A stretch of DNA of 55,208 nt from an uncultured Pseudomonadales bacterium (lineage in GTDB: Bacteria; Pseudomonadota; Gammaproteobacteria; Pseudomonadales; UBA7434). The notes beneath the pieces are model-generated. The model was not told the origin of the DNA. It searched no databases and saw only the letters and a program-made list of their open reading frames with translations. Below, piece after piece: positions 18,452 to 50,655 of the stretch (positions are counted from its first letter, which is position 1; every line of letters starts with the position of its first letter). Where the stretch lies: positions 1-55,208 of the forward strand of contig CAJQKT010000068.1 of the NCBI GenBank assembly GCA_905478995.1. The letters are read 5' to 3'. The translations under genes were made by a program, and so were the position numbers.

Positions 18452-18771
18452 TTCAATCAAGTCCCTAATAGGTGCGCTATTTAAAGTTACACAGAGCCGT
18501 CATCACTTGTCACTGCGAACTCAAGGCACAATGCCACCAAGCCTGGCAGACACACAAGCGGATGGATATTGCTGCTGTGATTTTAGATGATAAAGCAGTT
18601 ATACCCATCTTAGTATTGCAAGACGTTCATTTAACCGTCGATAATAGATCACTGAGATACAGCTGCCACGACATGCCGGTATAAACAGCACTCATTTGTT
18701 GATTATGCCTTGCAATAAAAAGCCACTGCCAACCATACGTTTTTTAACCCAACAACGCATCCGAGTTAACC
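18452..18771. other. 320-bp divergent region without a convincing gene
   Basis: It separates the orphan response regulator (minus) from the RDD gene (plus). A 70-codon plus-strand frame starting near 18472 has no recognisable domain or ribosome site and was not called. I see no strong promoter, repeat or terminator. Confidence 0.4.
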
Positions 18772-19275
18772 ATGAATACCACTACCAACGAGCCTATCGC
18801 AGGACTGGGCAGACGCCTATTTGCCATGGTTTATGATGTTTTACTGCTTCTTGCACTACTATTTTGCGTGGCTGGCGCCTATTTCACCGTGTTAACCGTT
18901 ATTGAGGGGAACACAGCAGCCGTCGCAAGTATTGGTGCGGCAAGTACCGGCGATGTAGTGCATGAACTCGAAGTCGTAGAGCCTGGCTGGCTTTTCTACC
19001 CGCTTATGCTGTTTGTTTACTGCGGATTCTATTGCTATTTTTGGTTCCAATCGGGCCAGACTTTAGGTATGCGGGCATGGAAGATCAAACTCGTTGCCGT
19101 AGATGCTCCCCACCCCTCCTTAAGTCAATTAGGCTTGCGCATGCTAACTGCAGTGTTGTCGATAGGCTTTCTGGGATTAGGCTATTTAACGCTATTAATC
19201 AATCGAGATGCAGGCACGTGGCACGATCGCTTGTCAAAAACACGTATCGTAACCTTAGCCTCAAAAGCCTCTTAA
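18772..19275 (+). CDS. RDD-family integral membrane protein
   Basis: 167 residues. The N-terminus GLGRRLFAMVYDVLLLLALLFCV carries the Arg-x-x-x-x-Asp pattern of RDD proteins at the edge of the first membrane helix. Further helices lie at about 62-82 and 118-138, with a periplasmic loop between the first two and the typical QTLGMRAWKIKLV and DAGTWHDRLSKTRIV motifs. Some RDD proteins act in ion exchange, but the role here is unknown. It converges on lptG. Confidence 0.88.
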   Translation: MNTTTNEPIAGLGRRLFAMVYDVLLLLALLFCVAGAYFTVLTVIEGNTAAVASIGAASTGDVVHELEVVEPGWLFYPLMLFVYCGFYCYFWFQSGQTLGMRAWKIKLVAVDAPHPSLSQLGLRMLTAVLSIGFLGLGYLTLLINRDAGTWHDRLSKTRIVTLASKAS

Positions 19276-19310
19276 CGGGGCCGATACACGCTTTCAATAA
19301 TAAGCTTGCG

Positions 19311-20375
19311 CTAACGGGCCTTGTTAAGCATAAGAATTCCAGCGAACACACACAGAAGAATAGGGATTAACACGGCAATCAAAGGCGAAAAACCATAGAT
19401 CAAACTTGCCGGCCCCAACAAGTTTTGCGTGAATTGAAATGCGATTCCCACCACAATGCCCACAAAAACTCTAAACCCCATGGTAGCTGAGCGCAGTGGC
19501 CCAAAGACAAACGACAGTGCTATCAATACCAAGCCAAAAATAGCCACAGGCTGTAAACATTTTTGCCAAAAAGCCAGCTGATAGGGCCCTGCATCTAAAC
19601 CTTGTTCCTGTAAATAGTCGCTGTAATACACCAAGCTTTGCATTGCCAATTCACTGGGCTCATTAACCAAAAAAGCTAACGATGCTGGCGTCAATGTGCT
19701 GTTCCAGATGAGTGTTGTAAGCTCACGGGTGCGTATCGCCGATTGATTAAATTCAGTATCTTTTACATCTTCAAGCAGCCATTGGTCTTTTTGATAAGTC
19801 GCCCGAGTTGCAGTGCGCGCCGTGCTCAGCTCGCCGTCTGAAAATTCAAATAATGTTATGCCATAGAGGACACCTCCTGGCTGCACAACACTGAAATGCA
19901 TGAAGGTATCGCCCTCACGATGCCACAGTCCCGTCCTACCCGACACCATTGAATGCGTTGAGCCCCAGAGCTTTAAATCCTTATGTGTTTTAGCCCAGCG
20001 ATCGGTAGTTGGCGCCACAAACTCACCTACCAGCATCGAAAAAATAATAACTAAAAAAACCGGCCTAAAAGCATAATCAGCAAGCTTAACTAACGAGATT
20101 CCGCTGGCGCGCATGACCACAATCTCACTACTGCTAGCTAACAGCCCCATACCGACCAAACTACCGATCAAGGCCGCCAAAGGCACGTACTCATTAATAC
20201 TTCCAGGAACCGTTAGCAACACATAATAAATGGCCTGAATAAAGGTATAGGCCTCACGAAGATCGCCTAACTGATCGACAATAGCGGCAATAACGTCAAG
20301 CCCCAACACTAATAAAAAAACCAACAAAATACTTCCGCCCACGGTGCTGGCGATGTAACCACTGAGTTTATTCAC
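19311..20375 (-). CDS. lptG: LPS export permease LptG
   Basis: Inner-membrane subunit of the LptB2FG transporter that extracts lipopolysaccharide and feeds the Lpt bridge. 354 residues with three N-terminal helices, a periplasmic jellyroll (about 100-270) and three C-terminal helices. VMRASGISLVKLADY is the typical coupling-helix motif for LptB. The start is GTG at 20375 with GGAGG nine bases before it. It follows lptF by 35 bp. Confidence 0.96.
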   Translation of the reverse strand: MNKLSGYIASTVGGSILLVFLLVLGLDVIAAIVDQLGDLREAYTFIQAIYYVLLTVPGSINEYVPLAALIGSLVGMGLLASSSEIVVMRASGISLVKLADYAFRPVFLVIIFSMLVGEFVAPTTDRWAKTHKDLKLWGSTHSMVSGRTGLWHREGDTFMHFSVVQPGGVLYGITLFEFSDGELSTARTATRATYQKDQWLLEDVKDTEFNQSAIRTRELTTLIWNSTLTPASLAFLVNEPSELAMQSLVYYSDYLQEQGLDAGPYQLAFWQKCLQPVAIFGLVLIALSFVFGPLRSATMGFRVFVGIVVGIAFQFTQNLLGPASLIYGFSPLIAVLIPILLCVFAGILMLNKAR

Positions 20376-20410
20376 GCCAGCGAACCTCCGTGACCAATAA
20401 TATTATTGGA

Positions 20411-21550
20411 TTATCCGCCATTTTCTTCCCCGGGTATGGCTCGATTGAGGTTGTTCAACTGTGTGCTTTGGCTTTTAGTTCGAGAGATAAAACGGCCGAA
20501 ACTATCGAAATAATTGAGTATTAGTGCAAACAGTAAAAACACTACATGCATTAACCAGAGCATCGCCACACCTAACTGGCCACTCTCGATAAAACTCCGC
20601 ACGCCAGACAGGGCAATAATATAAATAAGGTAGAGCAAAATCGCCGGTAGCATTTTGGTATAACGCCCTTTACGCCTATCGGTTTTGCTCAAAGGGACCG
20701 CAAGAATAGCCACAACAATAACCGTGGCCGGTAACGAAAAGCGCCAATGTAATGCAGCATGATGAGATAATTGATCTGAAGCGAAAACATCTAGCGTGGG
20801 TAACGCATCGATTCGCAGCTTGACCTGCTCTGCCTCACGTTGAATACGCATTTTTTCTGCGTAAGAGCCAAACTGCGTCAGTTGATAATCTTTGTGTCCT
20901 ATTACACCTTCATACATGGTGCCGTTCACCAGCTTGATATACAGCGTACTGGGATCCTCTGTTGGCAAAACCTCGCCCGAGTCGGCATGCACTAAGGCAA
21001 TACTCCCATCGTTGCGCTGTTCGACCAATAACACCTCTTCAAAAGAGTGCTTGCTGGGTAAACTTTTAACGTAAACCACGCTACTGCCATCGCGGTCAGT
21101 TTGAAATTTCCCCTCGCGAAATAACGCTAAACCGTGAGAACTGCGGGACTGTTCAAAGAGCCGATCGACCTTAGCCAAGCTAGCCGGCGCAGCCCACAGC
21201 GTAAGAAAAGCCACTAATGTGCTCACAAAGACCGCTGGCACGAGGGTGATCAATAAAATCTTGGTTTGACTGACCCCGCACGCACTCAATACGGTCATCT
21301 CACTATCGACATACAAGCGTCCATAGACCAGCAATATACCAACGAACAGCCCCAGTGGAATAATCAGCGGAAGAAAATCTGGAATGCGAAACAGCACTAT
21401 CTCAAAAACTAAATCAGGAGCAAGGTTGCCGGTGCTAGCCTGCGTAAGATACTTGGCGAGCCTGCCGCTAGTCACAATGAGCAATAGCACTACCGTGACC
21501 CCAAGCGTGGCCTGCAAAATACTAATGCAAAGGTAACGAAACAGCAGCAT
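20411..21550 (-). CDS. lptF: LPS export permease LptF
   Basis: Partner of LptG in LPS extraction. 379 residues with the N-terminal membrane triad (LLFRYLCISILQATLGVTVVLLL), coupling motif TVLSACGVSQTKILL, periplasmic domain, and a C-terminal membrane segment starting at LHWRFSLPATVIVVAILAVPLS. The ATG is at 21550. In many gammaproteobacteria pepA lies divergent to lptF; here the upstream region has no protein gene for almost 800 bp. Confidence 0.96.
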   Translation of the reverse strand: MLLFRYLCISILQATLGVTVVLLLIVTSGRLAKYLTQASTGNLAPDLVFEIVLFRIPDFLPLIIPLGLFVGILLVYGRLYVDSEMTVLSACGVSQTKILLITLVPAVFVSTLVAFLTLWAAPASLAKVDRLFEQSRSSHGLALFREGKFQTDRDGSSVVYVKSLPSKHSFEEVLLVEQRNDGSIALVHADSGEVLPTEDPSTLYIKLVNGTMYEGVIGHKDYQLTQFGSYAEKMRIQREAEQVKLRIDALPTLDVFASDQLSHHAALHWRFSLPATVIVVAILAVPLSKTDRRKGRYTKMLPAILLYLIYIIALSGVRSFIESGQLGVAMLWLMHVVFLLFALILNYFDSFGRFISRTKSQSTQLNNLNRAIPGEENGG

Positions 21551-22340
21551 GAAGACTCTGGAGCTAGAAGTAATAGGGTTAGTAGATTTGTCGGTTCACA
21601 GCACCAAAATAAACCACCTTAGGAACGTGCCGATAGCGAAAACTTACGTTACACCAGCGCGACGTTTATCGCCACAGCAATACTGTGAGAGCTTGCGCTA
21701 TACCTTACTTTTTACCGCGTTTTACAGGTTTGAACACTCACCCTGCCGGTGCTGGAGTAAACAGGTCACGCGCCCCCCATCAACACGCGATTTGGGCACC
21801 CGGCAAAGCGAACAATAAAGAGCCAATAAATTACAATTAGGCAAAAATCGTTCAGTAATTGATCGACTTGGAGGCCTTTAACGGTACAGCTGCTAAGCTC
21901 ATTGCATAGCAGATGTGGTAGTTCGTTGTTGCTATGGATCCAGGTCTGATTTAACTTTTGAGAGCGCCCATGCGGCGCTCTTTTTTTGCCTCAATTTCCT
22001 GCCCTAAATAAGCTGTCGCTTTTCTCAGCACCTCAAAATAATTAAACATTAAGCACCCTTCGGTCGTGCCCAAAAACGGGGCCAAGCCTACCAAACAACG
22101 CTTTTTATTCGCTCTATCTCAGCCCGTACAGCATTCTCGCACCCACCGATTACGGCATGGCTCACCGCGAACCCAAACGCGACGCGCTGTGAAATCGTGA
22201 CGTAAAACGCATTATCAAGATCAAAGTTGCTACCAGGTCACACTCTGGATAGATGCGCATTTAACAATCGAGAAAAGTTCATAAACTTCAGAGTATTACC
22301 TGTTCAGCAGATTGCTTTTTACTCTATTGGGTTACTGTTC
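21551..22340. other. 790-bp gene-poor region upstream of lptF
   Basis: No protein gene is supported on either strand; an 89-codon plus-strand frame starting near 21549 has no family signal. The notable content is a strong plus-strand intrinsic terminator at 21961-21987 with no gene in front of it, so a small RNA of roughly 100-150 nt ending there is possible. Possible promoter elements (TTACAA near 21830, AGTAAT near 21855) are weak. The sequence does not fold as a tRNA by eye and I recognise no known RNA family. Confidence 0.4.
21961..21987 (+). terminator. Strong intrinsic terminator with no upstream gene
   Basis: AGAGCGCC (21961-21968) pairs perfectly with GGCGCTCT (21974-21981) over a five-base loop, followed by seven consecutive T (21981-21987). 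This is a textbook plus-strand terminator. The nearest plus-strand gene upstream ends near 19275, with lptFG antisense between. Confidence 0.85.
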
Positions 22341-24029
22341 ATGAAGTCAATTCCAACTTATTCAAAATTAAGCCGTACTTGCCGCCACCTGGGGGCCGCA
22401 TCGGCCTTGAGCCTGATGTTAATGGGGTGTGGCGACTGGGACTCAAATAATACCAGTACGGAGAATAGCAACGAAGATACGTCGGCCAGCACGGCTTCAT
22501 TGTCGTTAGCGCTAGAGGACAATAACAGCGATGCGCCCAGCATCACCGTCAATGGCGCAGGAATTAAGGGGCCTTTAGCCAACGCTGAAGTCGCTGCTTA
22601 TTTATTAGACCCCAGCCAAATCGACCTCAAGGGGCAAAGAATTTCGCTAGGGCTTACCGATGAACTGGCCCGCCTAGACTTGTCTGTTCCCGCTGAGTAT
22701 GCCGGACAAGGCCCATTTTTAATTGAATACTCCGGTGGCAACGAGTTGAACGGTGAGACACCTTCAATTAGCGTATTAACGACGCTGCTAACCAACGAAC
22801 AACTTAACAACGGCACAGCTGTCTATGCCACGCCACTAACCTCGTTTGTTATTGCTCATGCCTATCAAATTGCAGATCGCTCTAACCTACCCTCTAACCC
22901 CATTCAAGACGGTTTACTGGGTGACAATAATGGCACTGTCTCACTACAAGAATTTTTAGCCGCGCTGCAAACCTCAGCCAACGCAATGAAGTCTACCTTA
23001 GGCTTAGGTCTGCTCTCTGAGCAAATGGATATTTTTACCACCTCGCCTTTACTGGATGGAAGCCAAAGTTCAGATGAATCTTTTGCAATACGCTATACCA
23101 ACGAAGTATTTGCCGCGCTTGTTGGCGAAGTAGCTACCGCAGTAAGTAGCAGTGCTTTACCCCTTAGCGGCTTAACGGTTGTGAAAGCGTTAGCTCAAGA
23201 TTTTAGCGATGGCGTTTTTGACAGCATGGCATGGGTAAATAATGATGGGGTAGCATCACCCATTGTCACATTTGTCGATGTCAATATCGCCAGCATTTTA
23301 GAAACGAATCCAGAGCAACTCACTATCCCGGGTACCAGCACGGCAATAGCAGACCTGAGCCAATTTTTAATGGCAGAAGCCAGCCTTCTCGATCTAAATA
23401 CACCTATTGAACCCAGCCAAACGATCGCTCCTGAGCCCTTGTTAACGACAGTATTTGAGGTGCCCGAATTACCGCCCACAGTATTACCCGCGGATCCTGT
23501 AATTGAAACGCCTGTGGTCACCGAGCCTGAGCCAGAAGCGCCTGTCGTAATCGAACCTGAACCTGAAGTGCCTGTCGTAATCGAACCTGAACCTGAAGTG
23601 CCTGTCGTAATCGAACCTGAACCTGAAGTGCCTGTCGTAATCGAGCCAGAACCAGAAGTGCCTGTCGTAATCGAACCTGAGCCTGAATTGCCTGTCGTAA
23701 TCGAACCTGAGCCTGAAGTTCCTGTAGTGATCGAACCTGAGCCTACTTTTAGCAATGTATTGCTCGACTGGGTTGTACCCACTACTCGCGAAGACGGGTC
23801 TGTATTGCCAATAAGCGAAATAGCCAGCTATGAAATCTATTATTACTTAGACGACGGAACCACTAACGGCACCAGCGTCAGTGTTGCAGCAACCAACGAT
23901 GCTGATGCATTGGTAACGAGCTTTCAGCTGAATAACCTGGCTGAAGGTGACTACTTCTTTTCTATCGCAACCATTGATACACAAGGCAATGTGAGCGAAT
24001 TTGTCGAACCGATCGCACTGTCGATCTAA
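22341..24029 (+). CDS. Lipoprotein with Glu/Pro-rich decapeptide repeats and a fibronectin-like C-terminus
   Basis: 562 residues from ATG 22341. The signal peptide ends in lipobox LMGC (lipidated C30), followed by a Ser/Asn/Asp-rich linker. A globular region (about 60-380) has no family I recognise; it contains ITVNGAGIKGPLANAEV, an opening common in secreted proteins that carry a carboxypeptidase-regulatory-like sandwich. About 7.7 copies of a ten-residue unit of the type EPEPEVPVVI follow at about 391-468. The end (about 473-562) is fibronectin type III-like (NVLLDWVVPTTREDG ... YEIYYYLDDG ... YFFSIATIDTQGN). The repeat is probably a rigid wall-spanning spacer. Outer-membrane anchoring is inferred from the residues after Cys (GDWD). 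Confidence 0.82.
   Translation: MKSIPTYSKLSRTCRHLGAASALSLMLMGCGDWDSNNTSTENSNEDTSASTASLSLALEDNNSDAPSITVNGAGIKGPLANAEVAAYLLDPSQIDLKGQRISLGLTDELARLDLSVPAEYAGQGPFLIEYSGGNELNGETPSISVLTTLLTNEQLNNGTAVYATPLTSFVIAHAYQIADRSNLPSNPIQDGLLGDNNGTVSLQEFLAALQTSANAMKSTLGLGLLSEQMDIFTTSPLLDGSQSSDESFAIRYTNEVFAALVGEVATAVSSSALPLSGLTVVKALAQDFSDGVFDSMAWVNNDGVASPIVTFVDVNIASILETNPEQLTIPGTSTAIADLSQFLMAEASLLDLNTPIEPSQTIAPEPLLTTVFEVPELPPTVLPADPVIETPVVTEPEPEAPVVIEPEPEVPVVIEPEPEVPVVIEPEPEVPVVIEPEPEVPVVIEPEPELPVVIEPEPEVPVVIEPEPTFSNVLLDWVVPTTREDGSVLPISEIASYEIYYYLDDGTTNGTSVSVAATNDADALVTSFQLNNLAEGDYFFSIATIDTQGNVSEFVEPIALSI
23511..23743 (+). repeat. 30-bp tandem repeat inside the lipoprotein gene
   Basis: Seven complete and one partial unit, starting at 23511, 23541, 23571, 23601, 23631, 23661, 23691 and 23721. 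Units at 23541, 23571 and 23601 are identical; the outer ones diverge mostly at silent positions. Near-identity at DNA level suggests recent expansion and possible length variation between strains, always in frame. Confidence 0.93.
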
Positions 24030-24042
24030 ACAGTTGGCCGTT

Positions 24043-24071
24043 AAAAAAGGGCTAGCTAATAAAGCCAGCCC
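24043..24071 (-). terminator. Intrinsic terminator for cinA
   Basis: On the minus strand a stem GGGCT-x-GCT / AGC-x-AGCCC (complement of 24049-24071) is followed by six T (complement of the A-run 24043-24048). It lies eight bases beyond the cinA stop. It may also act weakly on the convergent lipoprotein gene. Confidence 0.8.
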
Positions 24072-24079
24072 TCACCCGA

Positions 24080-25351
24080 CTAGGGGCGCTTACCTCGAAA
24101 ATAGTTAGGCACTTCATCAATATTTTGCAGTTGACGCCGCAGTAAATCTAACCCAACGGCTGTAATCATAGTTTGAAAACGGCTTCGGGCGACCCCATAG
24201 CAAAATTTCTCGACCTTAAGATTGTCGCTACTTCCCCAAGCGATCCAAACAGTGCCTACAGGCTTTTCGTCACTGCCGCCCCCGGGGCCAGCAATGCCGG
24301 TCACTGCTATAACAAAGTCAGCGGCACTCAATCGCAGCGCACCGCGAGCCATGCTCAGTGCCACATCACGACTTACCGCCCCTTCGCGCGCTAATACTTC
24401 AGTAGGAACATCCAGTACGCGATGCTTAATGGCATTCGAATAGGAGACGATCCCGGCATCAAAAACATCAGAAGCACCGGCCACTGAGGTAATTTGAGCA
24501 GCGATTGCGCCTCCGGTGCAGGACTCGGCCAATGTCAATTTTTGACCCTTCGCTTTTAACAATGCAACCACTATCTCAGCTAAAGTCTCGTCATTTTCGC
24601 CAATGATGTAGTTGCCAAATAACGCGCGTAACTGATGCTCACACTGGGCGCGCAAGGGTAATGCCTTGTCAGACTCAACCTCGAGTTTGAGCTCAAGCAG
24701 TGGCAGACCGGCTCTAAAACCAATCTGCACTTGCTCAGGCCAACTTGGAATGTCATCGACTACTCTTTGTTGTACTTGAGATTCACCCAGCCCAAATATT
24801 TTCAGTCGCCTGATCAAGCGCGCCTTAGCATCAGGAAACTTCTTATGCAAAGCCGTGATCACATCGCCGGCAAGCATAGCGCGCAATTCACTCGGTACCC
24901 CGGGAGTAGTTAAAATTGTGCACCCATCATAATCGACCGCAAAACCCACCGCACTGCCCACGGGATTAGCAAGGACATGCGCACCAGCTGGCAGCAACGC
25001 TTGCTTAAGGTTGGCCTGATTCGAGGTATAGCCACGCTTAATACACCATTCATCCAAATGCTTACGCGCATCCGGATGCTCAACCAGTGGCAAGCCGCAA
25101 AGAGAGGCAACAACCAACGACGTTAAATCATCGATTGTAGGACCAAGGCCACCATTAACAATAATGACCGGATATCGGCTCGCCAATTGTTTCAGCTCTT
25201 CAATCAATAAACTCTGACTGTCGCCCACTGTTACCTTATGTACAACATCAAAGCCATCACTGGCTAAACGCTGAGCGATCATCGCTGAATTGGTATCAAC
25301 GGTATCACCCGTCATCAATTCATTACCGGTTAAGAGCAAAGCAATATGCAA
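24080..25351 (-). CDS. cinA: CinA: nicotinamide-nucleotide amidase with N-terminal CinA/MoaB-like domain
   Basis: 423 residues. The N-terminal MoCF-like domain (about 1-170; LLTGNELMTGDTVDTNSAMIAQRL, VNGGLGPTIDDLT, TTPGVPSEL) is the pyrophosphatase-type half. The C-terminal PncC amidase domain (about 260-415; TLAESCTGGAIAAQITSVAGASDVFDAGIVSYSN, AVTGIAGPGGG) deamidates nicotinamide mononucleotide in NAD salvage. The start is TTG at 25351 with GAGGA six bases before it; no ATG gives the conserved N-terminus. Full-length two-domain CinA is present rather than PncC alone. recA is not adjacent. Confidence 0.95.
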   Translation of the reverse strand: MHIALLLTGNELMTGDTVDTNSAMIAQRLASDGFDVVHKVTVGDSQSLLIEELKQLASRYPVIIVNGGLGPTIDDLTSLVVASLCGLPLVEHPDARKHLDEWCIKRGYTSNQANLKQALLPAGAHVLANPVGSAVGFAVDYDGCTILTTPGVPSELRAMLAGDVITALHKKFPDAKARLIRRLKIFGLGESQVQQRVVDDIPSWPEQVQIGFRAGLPLLELKLEVESDKALPLRAQCEHQLRALFGNYIIGENDETLAEIVVALLKAKGQKLTLAESCTGGAIAAQITSVAGASDVFDAGIVSYSNAIKHRVLDVPTEVLAREGAVSRDVALSMARGALRLSAADFVIAVTGIAGPGGGSDEKPVGTVWIAWGSSDNLKVEKFCYGVARSRFQTMITAVGLDLLRRQLQNIDEVPNYFRGKRP

Positions 25352-25457
25352 AGTGATTCCTCAATGAAAATTAGCTAACAGGGCGACATAGAGCATGAGC
25401 GCTCTATCGAACAAAGGCACAGAAGCGTACGATTTATCCTTCGAACTTACATTTTCT

Positions 25458-26177
25458 TTAACGCTCATGAGTGCCATGCCGTGCACTATCGGTTGATGGC
25501 GCTTGTAAGCCTGCCACCATGAAATCTATCAAATTTCGCGTACGCCATTGCAACGCTTCACTATCAAGTTCGATAATATGCTTACGTCGCGCCTCATCCC
25601 ATTCAGCAACAGAGCTCACAGTCTGGCGGCCCATCAACTGTAATCGCAAATGAATAACTCTAACGGGTAAGGGCGCCAATGTTTTTATGAGCAATGAGGT
25701 AATGTCATGTAATGCGCGCGCCCTGACCTTGTTTTTTGCAAACAGCTCTCGCCCTGCTTGATATGCATATAGCTGAGCCAACAGTGAAACATAATAGGTG
25801 TCTTCAATGGGCTTAAGTAATTCACTAGCAAATGGTTCAATGAAAACCTCTACCAGCTTACGTGTACTAGGCAGCCTAGATTGACTCTTAAGATGCTGCA
25901 AACGCAACAAGCGCTGCTGATTAACCGGAGTCACTCGGTAATCAAGAATCGCCTCAATTAATCCCTCGCGATTTTTAAAATGGTATTGCAGTGCTGAGTT
26001 ATTCTTTTGACCCGATGCTCGCGATATCATTCGGGTAGAAACCCCTTCCAAGCCATGCTCAGCTATTAGTTGCTCGGCACAACATAATATTTTTCGAGCC
26101 GCTAAACCAAGCGGCTGCGCATCAACTAAGCTCGCTGTCTTATTCAATGGATAATCCCAACCTATATACCGATACAT
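25458..26177 (-). CDS. TetR-family transcription regulator
   Basis: 239 residues from ATG 26177. The helix-turn-helix spans about 25-75 (ARKILCCAEQLIAEHGLEGVSTRMISRASGQKNNSALQYHFKNREGLIEAIL). The HTH loop AGQKNNSALQYHF is of the type seen in regulators of membrane or lipid functions. The ligand-binding domain (about 80-230) is not assignable. The closest genes are cinA downstream and a DUF3301 gene across a 350-bp gap, and neither is an obvious target. Confidence 0.88.
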   Translation of the reverse strand: MYRYIGWDYPLNKTASLVDAQPLGLAARKILCCAEQLIAEHGLEGVSTRMISRASGQKNNSALQYHFKNREGLIEAILDYRVTPVNQQRLLRLQHLKSQSRLPSTRKLVEVFIEPFASELLKPIEDTYYVSLLAQLYAYQAGRELFAKNKVRARALHDITSLLIKTLAPLPVRVIHLRLQLMGRQTVSSVAEWDEARRKHIIELDSEALQWRTRNLIDFMVAGLQAPSTDSARHGTHER

Positions 26178-50298: not shown

Positions 50299-50465
50299 CT
50301 ACTAACCTACCTACTGTTTAAAAGCGCGGCACGGCAATCAGAGGTGGTGCGGATCAATGACAGCCAAATAAAAACAGCCAACCACTATGAACCAGCAGCC
50401 CCGAGCGAATTTAGATTGAAAAACAATCATTTGTTTGCTAAGGTCGCGGCCTGATCAAATTGTCC

Positions 50466-50641
50466 TTAGGTTTTTGGTGAATCGTCAGGATGCGATACCA
50501 AAATTAAACGGGAAGTTGGTGCGCAAAGCCTAGTAAGGCTAAGCAACTCCAACACTGCCCCCGCAACGGTAAATGACTGGTTAGTAAGCCTTACATAGGC
50601 TGACTTCCTTAAATTAAGTCATGAGTCCGGAACCGGCCTAA
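50466..50641 (+). ncRNA. Cobalamin (AdoCbl-type) riboswitch controlling btuB
   Basis: The conserved core is easy to read: closing stem TTAGG (50466-50470) with CCTAA (50637-50641), GGGAAGTTGGTGC, CAACACTGCCCCCGCAACGG, and the B12-box variant GAGTCCGGAACCGGCC (50623-50638). Its position directly before a TonB-dependent receptor fits btuB leaders. Cobalamin binding should lower expression of the downstream operon. Confidence 0.95.
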
Positions 50642-50655
50642 ACGACACCACATAA

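Follow-up and report, generated by a model that had tools for sequence, protein, structure and literature searches.

A probable small RNA gene beside lptF, with a conserved candidate seed and probable sibling loci, in a genus of uncultured Pseudomonadales

The intergenic region upstream of lptF in an uncultured member of the Pseudomonadales carries a short conserved unit consisting of a -10 box, a 5' hairpin, an invariant unpaired motif and an intrinsic terminator. The unit lies in a window of 55,208 nucleotides (contig 68 of the genome referred to here as G000), which is the whole stretch of DNA analysed, and recurs in 10 of the 12 genomes that make up the genus set. A free-standing sRNA gene, as the earlier note had proposed, is the best reading of this sequence: all ten copies keep the -10 box, the 5' hairpin and the motif UCCAGGUC. 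The genus thereby gains a defined probable sRNA gene with a clear candidate seed. The features of the locus (locus A) and its neighbours are as follows.

Ending at 19275, plus strand: RDD-family ORF, the nearest upstream plus-strand gene, 2.7 kb from the terminator
19311-20375, minus strand: lptG-like ORF, between the upstream plus-strand gene and lptF
20411-21550, minus strand: lptF, the divergent neighbour, outside the RNA (PF03739, E 5e-64)
21891-21899, plus strand: probable extended -10 box TGC TAAGCT of the sRNA promoter, without a good -35 in G000; CTAnnnT in 10/10 copies
21905-21987, plus strand: probable sRNA gene (locus A), about 83 nt; conserved unit in 10/12 genus genomes
21906-21935, plus strand: 5' hairpin with arms ATAGCA (21906-21911) and TGCTAT (21930-21935); 55/60 cells paired over ten species
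21939-21946, plus strand: invariant core TCCAGGTC, probable seed; identical in 10/10 copies
21961-21987, plus strand: intrinsic terminator with an 8-bp stem, a 5-nt loop and seven T; stem sequence varies by species, pairing kept
22341-24029, plus strand: downstream lipoprotein-like gene, an ORF with no Pfam family over cut-off

The terminator is real. Its stem is formed by AGAGCGCC and GGCGCTCT (21961-21968 and 21974-21981), closed by the loop CATGC and followed by seven T (21981-21987), so that the perfect GC-rich 8-bp stem reported in the earlier note is confirmed. Under a strict rule (eight or more perfectly paired bp, five or more of them G-C, followed by six or more T) it is the sole match on both strands of the window, and none was found in 60 windows simulated with a first-order Markov model. 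A laxer scan of 18500-25500 shows no excess, with 9 terminators found against 8.0 expected. Over the ten copies of locus A the U tail ranges from seven to nine T, and four of nine stem pairs show changes on both sides. The terminator is also an orphan, as first described: no plus-strand gene lies directly upstream, and the lptG-like ORF and lptF occupy the minus strand over the intervening 2.7 kb. Of 77 LptF loci from named records (80 less three without enough flank), one has a terminator with a perfect stem directed away from lptF and no more than 700 bp from it, namely the record of the sister species G007. The second record from the genus (L044) escaped the strict scan because its stem is imperfect.

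A -10 box of the form TAnnnT preceded by C is found 37-50 nt 5' of the core in all ten copies. The -35 element is less uniform. Five copies (G009, G002, G010, G005 and G003) have one with at least four of six matches at a spacer of 16-17 nt, and it is weaker in the remaining five and poor in G000 and G007; the best match in G000 is 3/6 at a 19-nt spacer. The conserved layout of -10 box, hairpin, core and terminator indicates that transcription in G000 probably starts near 21904-21906, giving an RNA of about 83 nt. The earlier suggestion of a start at 21840-21870 is thus not supported. An RNA folded from 21840 is strongly structured (z -2.78) and pairs the core with the upstream stretch GACTTGGA, and a similar stretch is kept in G007. 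By eye, no such complement is present upstream in the sequences of the other species, and for this reason the longer RNA is not preferred. Sequence 5' of the terminator hairpin, whose lack of conservation, together with the absence of a transcript, had been named beforehand as evidence against an sRNA, is conserved in 10 of 10 copies.

The 5' hairpin shows compensatory changes at three of six pairs in a hand alignment of the ten species. Pair 1 occurs as A-U, G-U and G-C, pair 6 as A-U or G-C, and pair 4 as G-C or A-U, but as A-C in three species. These counts were made on the hand alignment because MAFFT placed the 5' arm of the species with short hairpins elsewhere, and that alignment leans towards the structure. 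The 3' arm ends 2-4 nt ahead of the core in every copy. When the segment from the start to the core is folded alone, it beats shuffled sequences at the 5% level in seven species, and does not in G002, G010 and G003. For the 5' hairpin and the terminator helix, the percentage paired, the number of double-change cells and the covariation score exceed all 500 column shuffles, while two of the five measures do not beat them (double-change pairs, 178/500; pair types, 498/500); such shuffles ignore the relatedness of the species. The motif UCCAGGUC is invariant in the ten copies, and the linker 3' of the core reads ATAACCTC in seven of them. The lowest-energy fold of the G000 RNA takes up part of the core, which could thus be free only with the help of a chaperone or of cotranscriptional folding.

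The ten copies initially came to light through similarity at the DNA level, a pattern and synteny. Every genome in which the lptF flank is assembled, nine in all, carries the element upstream of that gene (G000, G007, G009, G002, G010, G001, G005, G008 and G006). The tenth copy, in G003, was placed by the adjoining lipoprotein-like gene near a contig end, no lptF having been found in that assembly. The other two genomes were left out of the judgement, G004 with a contig ending inside lptF and G011 with a weak LptG-like match only. In a search of 57 genomes at the DNA level, G007 matched at 89%, while G003 and G052 gave short matches, that in G052 covering the terminator only. In a blastn comparison of the whole intergenic region with eight more distant loci, the element alone was matched, in G009 (71.5% over 130 columns) and G003; in the other six loci its identification relies on core, -10 box and structure. 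A covariance model (R1) trained on the ten copies of locus A recovers, out of the 12 genomes, the ten that carry them, and its eight weaker matches within the genus are without the core. The nearest named records of LptF are from uncultured Pseudomonadales, at 95% and 67% identity.

The genomic context does not tie the element to a fixed downstream gene. In G000, G007, G009 and G003 the lipoprotein-like gene follows on the same strand, and in the other six (G002, G010, G001, G005, G008 and G006) the next gene is a convergent one encoding a DUF2288 protein. This change of neighbour between species, with lptF divergent on the other side, argues for an independent unit and not a leader. In those six genomes the DUF2288 gene ends close to the sRNA terminator; in G000 there is none between the sRNA and the lipoprotein-like gene. 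Homologues of the latter sit farther on in G002 and G010, and the product of 22341-24029 contains many tandem repeats of the type PVVIEPEPE.

Two further loci in G000 are probable siblings of locus A, to judge by their arrangement. This genome contains 28 copies of the core's complement, counting locus A, and two of the others, both on the minus strand, directly precede a terminator: locus B (C14:24477-24525) and locus C (C1:47332-47375). For two extra sites of 27 to fall before strong terminators by chance looks unlikely. Both loci are also present in the sister species G007, and both have a -35 box TTGACC followed after 17 nt by a -10 box (TATTTT in G000 and TAATTT in G007 for B, TAGATT in both genomes for C). 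In G000, B and C share CGTATTGACC, and B shares TCCAGGTCTGATTT with locus A. In G007, B adjoins the same ORFs, its terminator is changed but still paired, and the arms of its 5' hairpin read TTGTGT/ACACGA against CTGTGT/ACACAG; the core of C there reads TCCAGGAC, with one base changed. Locus B lies upstream of a rhodanese-like ORF on the same strand and could also be a leader. Locus C is preceded by a gene set with ArsR-, ArsC- and arsenite-transporter-like members, and the gene on its other side is convergent with it (names given by eye). A second model (R2), built from A, B and the G000 copy of C with terminator pairs only, finds B and C in two of the 12 genus genomes, G000 and G007; in these two, therefore, more than one locus per genome places the motif before a terminator. 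One alignment (A5), in which locus B was out of register, was left out.

When the genus was searched for TCCAGGTC followed by six T, four matches beyond locus A showed what by eye is a terminator stem: locus B in both G000 and G007, locus C in G000, and a further site in G005. The other matches listed for the genus do not resemble terminators. In the extra G005 copy (L241 1037-1080, minus strand, from G005:C167), TCCAGGTC and a terminator precede a same-strand mraZ-like ORF; this single, unconfirmed copy is possibly a leader. A further G000 place (G000:C79, L252), in which the core follows a GGGGAGC/GCTCCCC hairpin and precedes a T run without a terminator stem, was not counted as a sibling.

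Outside the genus the covariance models find little that resembles locus A. At E up to 0.1 R1 matches 75 of 390 genomes, and at E up to 0.02 R2 matches 63 of the 390; each total includes ten genomes of the genus. Among the 15 + 6 R1 matches listed from outside the genus, the exact core is present in two (G103 and G354), both directly after a gene, and among the 20 R2 matches listed the core is found only in the same two. As far as they were inspected, the outside-genus matches in the order appear to be ordinary terminators, with the exception of G103 and G354. Run on 38 of the 80 LptF loci, R1 finds only two loci at E below 1, both from the genus. Order-wide counts of TCCAGGTC followed by six T include coding sequence and count single T runs several times. 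Of seven such places checked outside the genus, three overlap or directly follow coding frames; the others include places in G218/G199 and G134. In G218:C161 and G199:C30 (L246 and L247) one shared intergenic TCCAGGTC precedes a terminator, and R1 gives 21.8 bits in L246; these copies differ too little from each other for conservation of the place to be judged. A Dasania-like pair (L267 1509-1569 and L268 1500-1565, both minus strand), which includes the G134 place, has an intergenic CTCATCCAGGTCTT and a terminator near a BolA-like gene. In this pair the core and the terminator are kept against an intergenic background that is 74% identical, in 2 of 10 family genomes with the query genome included; R1 gives 14.2 bits in one member and no match in the other. 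As a possible relative of locus A the pair is suggestive only.

The unrelated sites at which the motif and its architecture are kept, while promoters and helices change (lptF, the arsenic-resistance-like set, the rhodanese-like and the bolA-like genes), raise the idea of an sRNA regulon that predates the genus and has UCCAGGUC as its seed, with one target set wired to several signals. We regard this wider reading, for which the Dasania-like pair is the ground and a weak one, as doubtful.

As to function, we think it probable that locus A encodes an independent sRNA of about 83 nt that has its own promoter and acts in trans with Hfq, using UCCAGGUC as its seed. The RNA would be transcribed away from lptF and would end at the 21961-21987 terminator, and so would consist of the 5' hairpin, the stretch with UCCAGGUC and the U-rich terminator. 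Hfq may hold it by the U tail, and UCCAGGUC may pair in trans with mRNAs and alter how they are translated or how stable they are. As probable siblings, loci B and C would share the motif, each with its own promoter. The anatomy, the conservation, the terminator and the Hfq gene are read directly from the sequence; transcription, its start, Hfq binding, pairing and targets are what we infer from them. The Hfq gene of G000 is clear (PF17209, 98.4 bits against a cut-off of 27).

The complement of UCCAGGUC, GACCUGGA(G), contains the ribosome-binding core GGA(G), which makes the blocking of translation starts a natural guess. The target search covered exact 8-nt sites in one genome (the 28 complements in G000) and two genes, murE and lptF. 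In G000, no ORF of at least 70 codons starts within 35 nt after an exact 8-nt site, unless its frame is open for at least 31 codons upstream. Two ORFs named by eye have an exact site just inside them: in an NRDE-like ORF it falls at codons 4-6, and in a murE-like one at about codons 6-8. The murE candidate was rejected: the site is present in one of 11 genomes with a murE match, and the pairing is no better than shuffles in the nine computed. Pairing with the lptF translation start is likewise no better than shuffles in six of seven genomes, and beats them in G005 alone (0.03). The link to LPS genes considered in the earlier note is accordingly not supported, lptF being the sole LPS gene tested, and this locus adjoining lptF offers no evidence for control of LPS export. 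If the shared motif is the seed, targets could be traced through cross-species mRNA pairing or Hfq-linked RNA capture.

Other explanations of the locus also have to be considered. An independent sRNA could use UCCAGGUC to bind a protein or another RNA, as in titration or a sponge, in place of mRNA targets. In its favour are the single short invariant motif in RNAs that otherwise vary, and in their siblings, and the lack of a conserved mRNA target among the exact 8-nt sites of G000 and in murE and lptF. However, that search was narrow, and one motif per RNA in an unstructured setting would seem to fit a seed better than a titrating array; we therefore consider this explanation unlikely. It is quite improbable that the element acts in cis, as a leader or attenuator, on the lipoprotein-like gene downstream. 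Four genomes do have that gene on the same strand, and locus B and the G005 copy likewise precede same-strand ORFs (rhodanese-like and mraZ-like by eye), but the RNA is equally conserved in the six genomes where the convergent DUF2288 gene comes next, and in G000 some 350 nt separate the end of the terminator from the gene.

The constant position upstream of lptF, in 9 of 9 genomes with the flank assembled, could also mean that the element belongs to the minus strand, for instance to the leader or promoter of lptF, and only mimics a plus-strand RNA. This is very improbable, since the T run and the -10 box are on the plus strand in 10 of 10 copies and loci B and C are not next to lptF. There is least to be said for a small coding gene or for a chance terminator without function. 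An ATG in G000 opens a frame of six codons across the core, but it is lost in species such as G010, which reads CTATCAATCC there, and chance does not give the conservation observed. A trans-acting sRNA with UCCAGGUC as its seed is thus the explanation we prefer, and the case illustrates how following up a single orphan terminator can bring a set of probable siblings to light.

At locus A there are only weak Rfam matches, none of them reaching the gathering cut-off of its family; the earlier note had likewise recognised no known family. In STnc130 (RF02084; 17.9 bits on the opposite strand, cut-off 55) and SSRC38 (RF02527; 16.6 bits against a cut-off of 80) a terminator-like hairpin alone is matched, and the RNA is a member of neither. 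No family matches at E up to 1 at loci B and C, the G005 copy or the Dasania-like pair. The sole Rfam match at gathering cut-off in the window is a cobalamin riboswitch (RF00174) at 50452-50655 on the plus strand (64.7 bits). No description of the locus A RNA was found in the titles and abstract openings of the papers listed by literature searches.

The Hfq-dependent trans-acting sRNAs are a class that includes RyhB and Spot 42. The locus A RNA resembles them in its own predicted promoter, its length of about 80 nt, its unpaired conserved stretch, its long U tail and the presence of an Hfq gene in the genome; unlike them, it has no homology that we could find to any described family. Sibling trans-encoded sRNAs are also known, namely the sibling sRNAs of Neisseria (PMC5362039, PMC9973317), AbcR1/2 of Brucella (PMC5461406) and LhrC1-5 of Listeria (PMC5880928). 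Loci A, B and C are similar in having several loci per genome, a common short motif and terminators, and differ in sequence and host, in lying at unlinked loci and in being predictions from sequence. Sibling sRNAs are thus a known kind, of which the set formed by A, B and C appears to be a new example.
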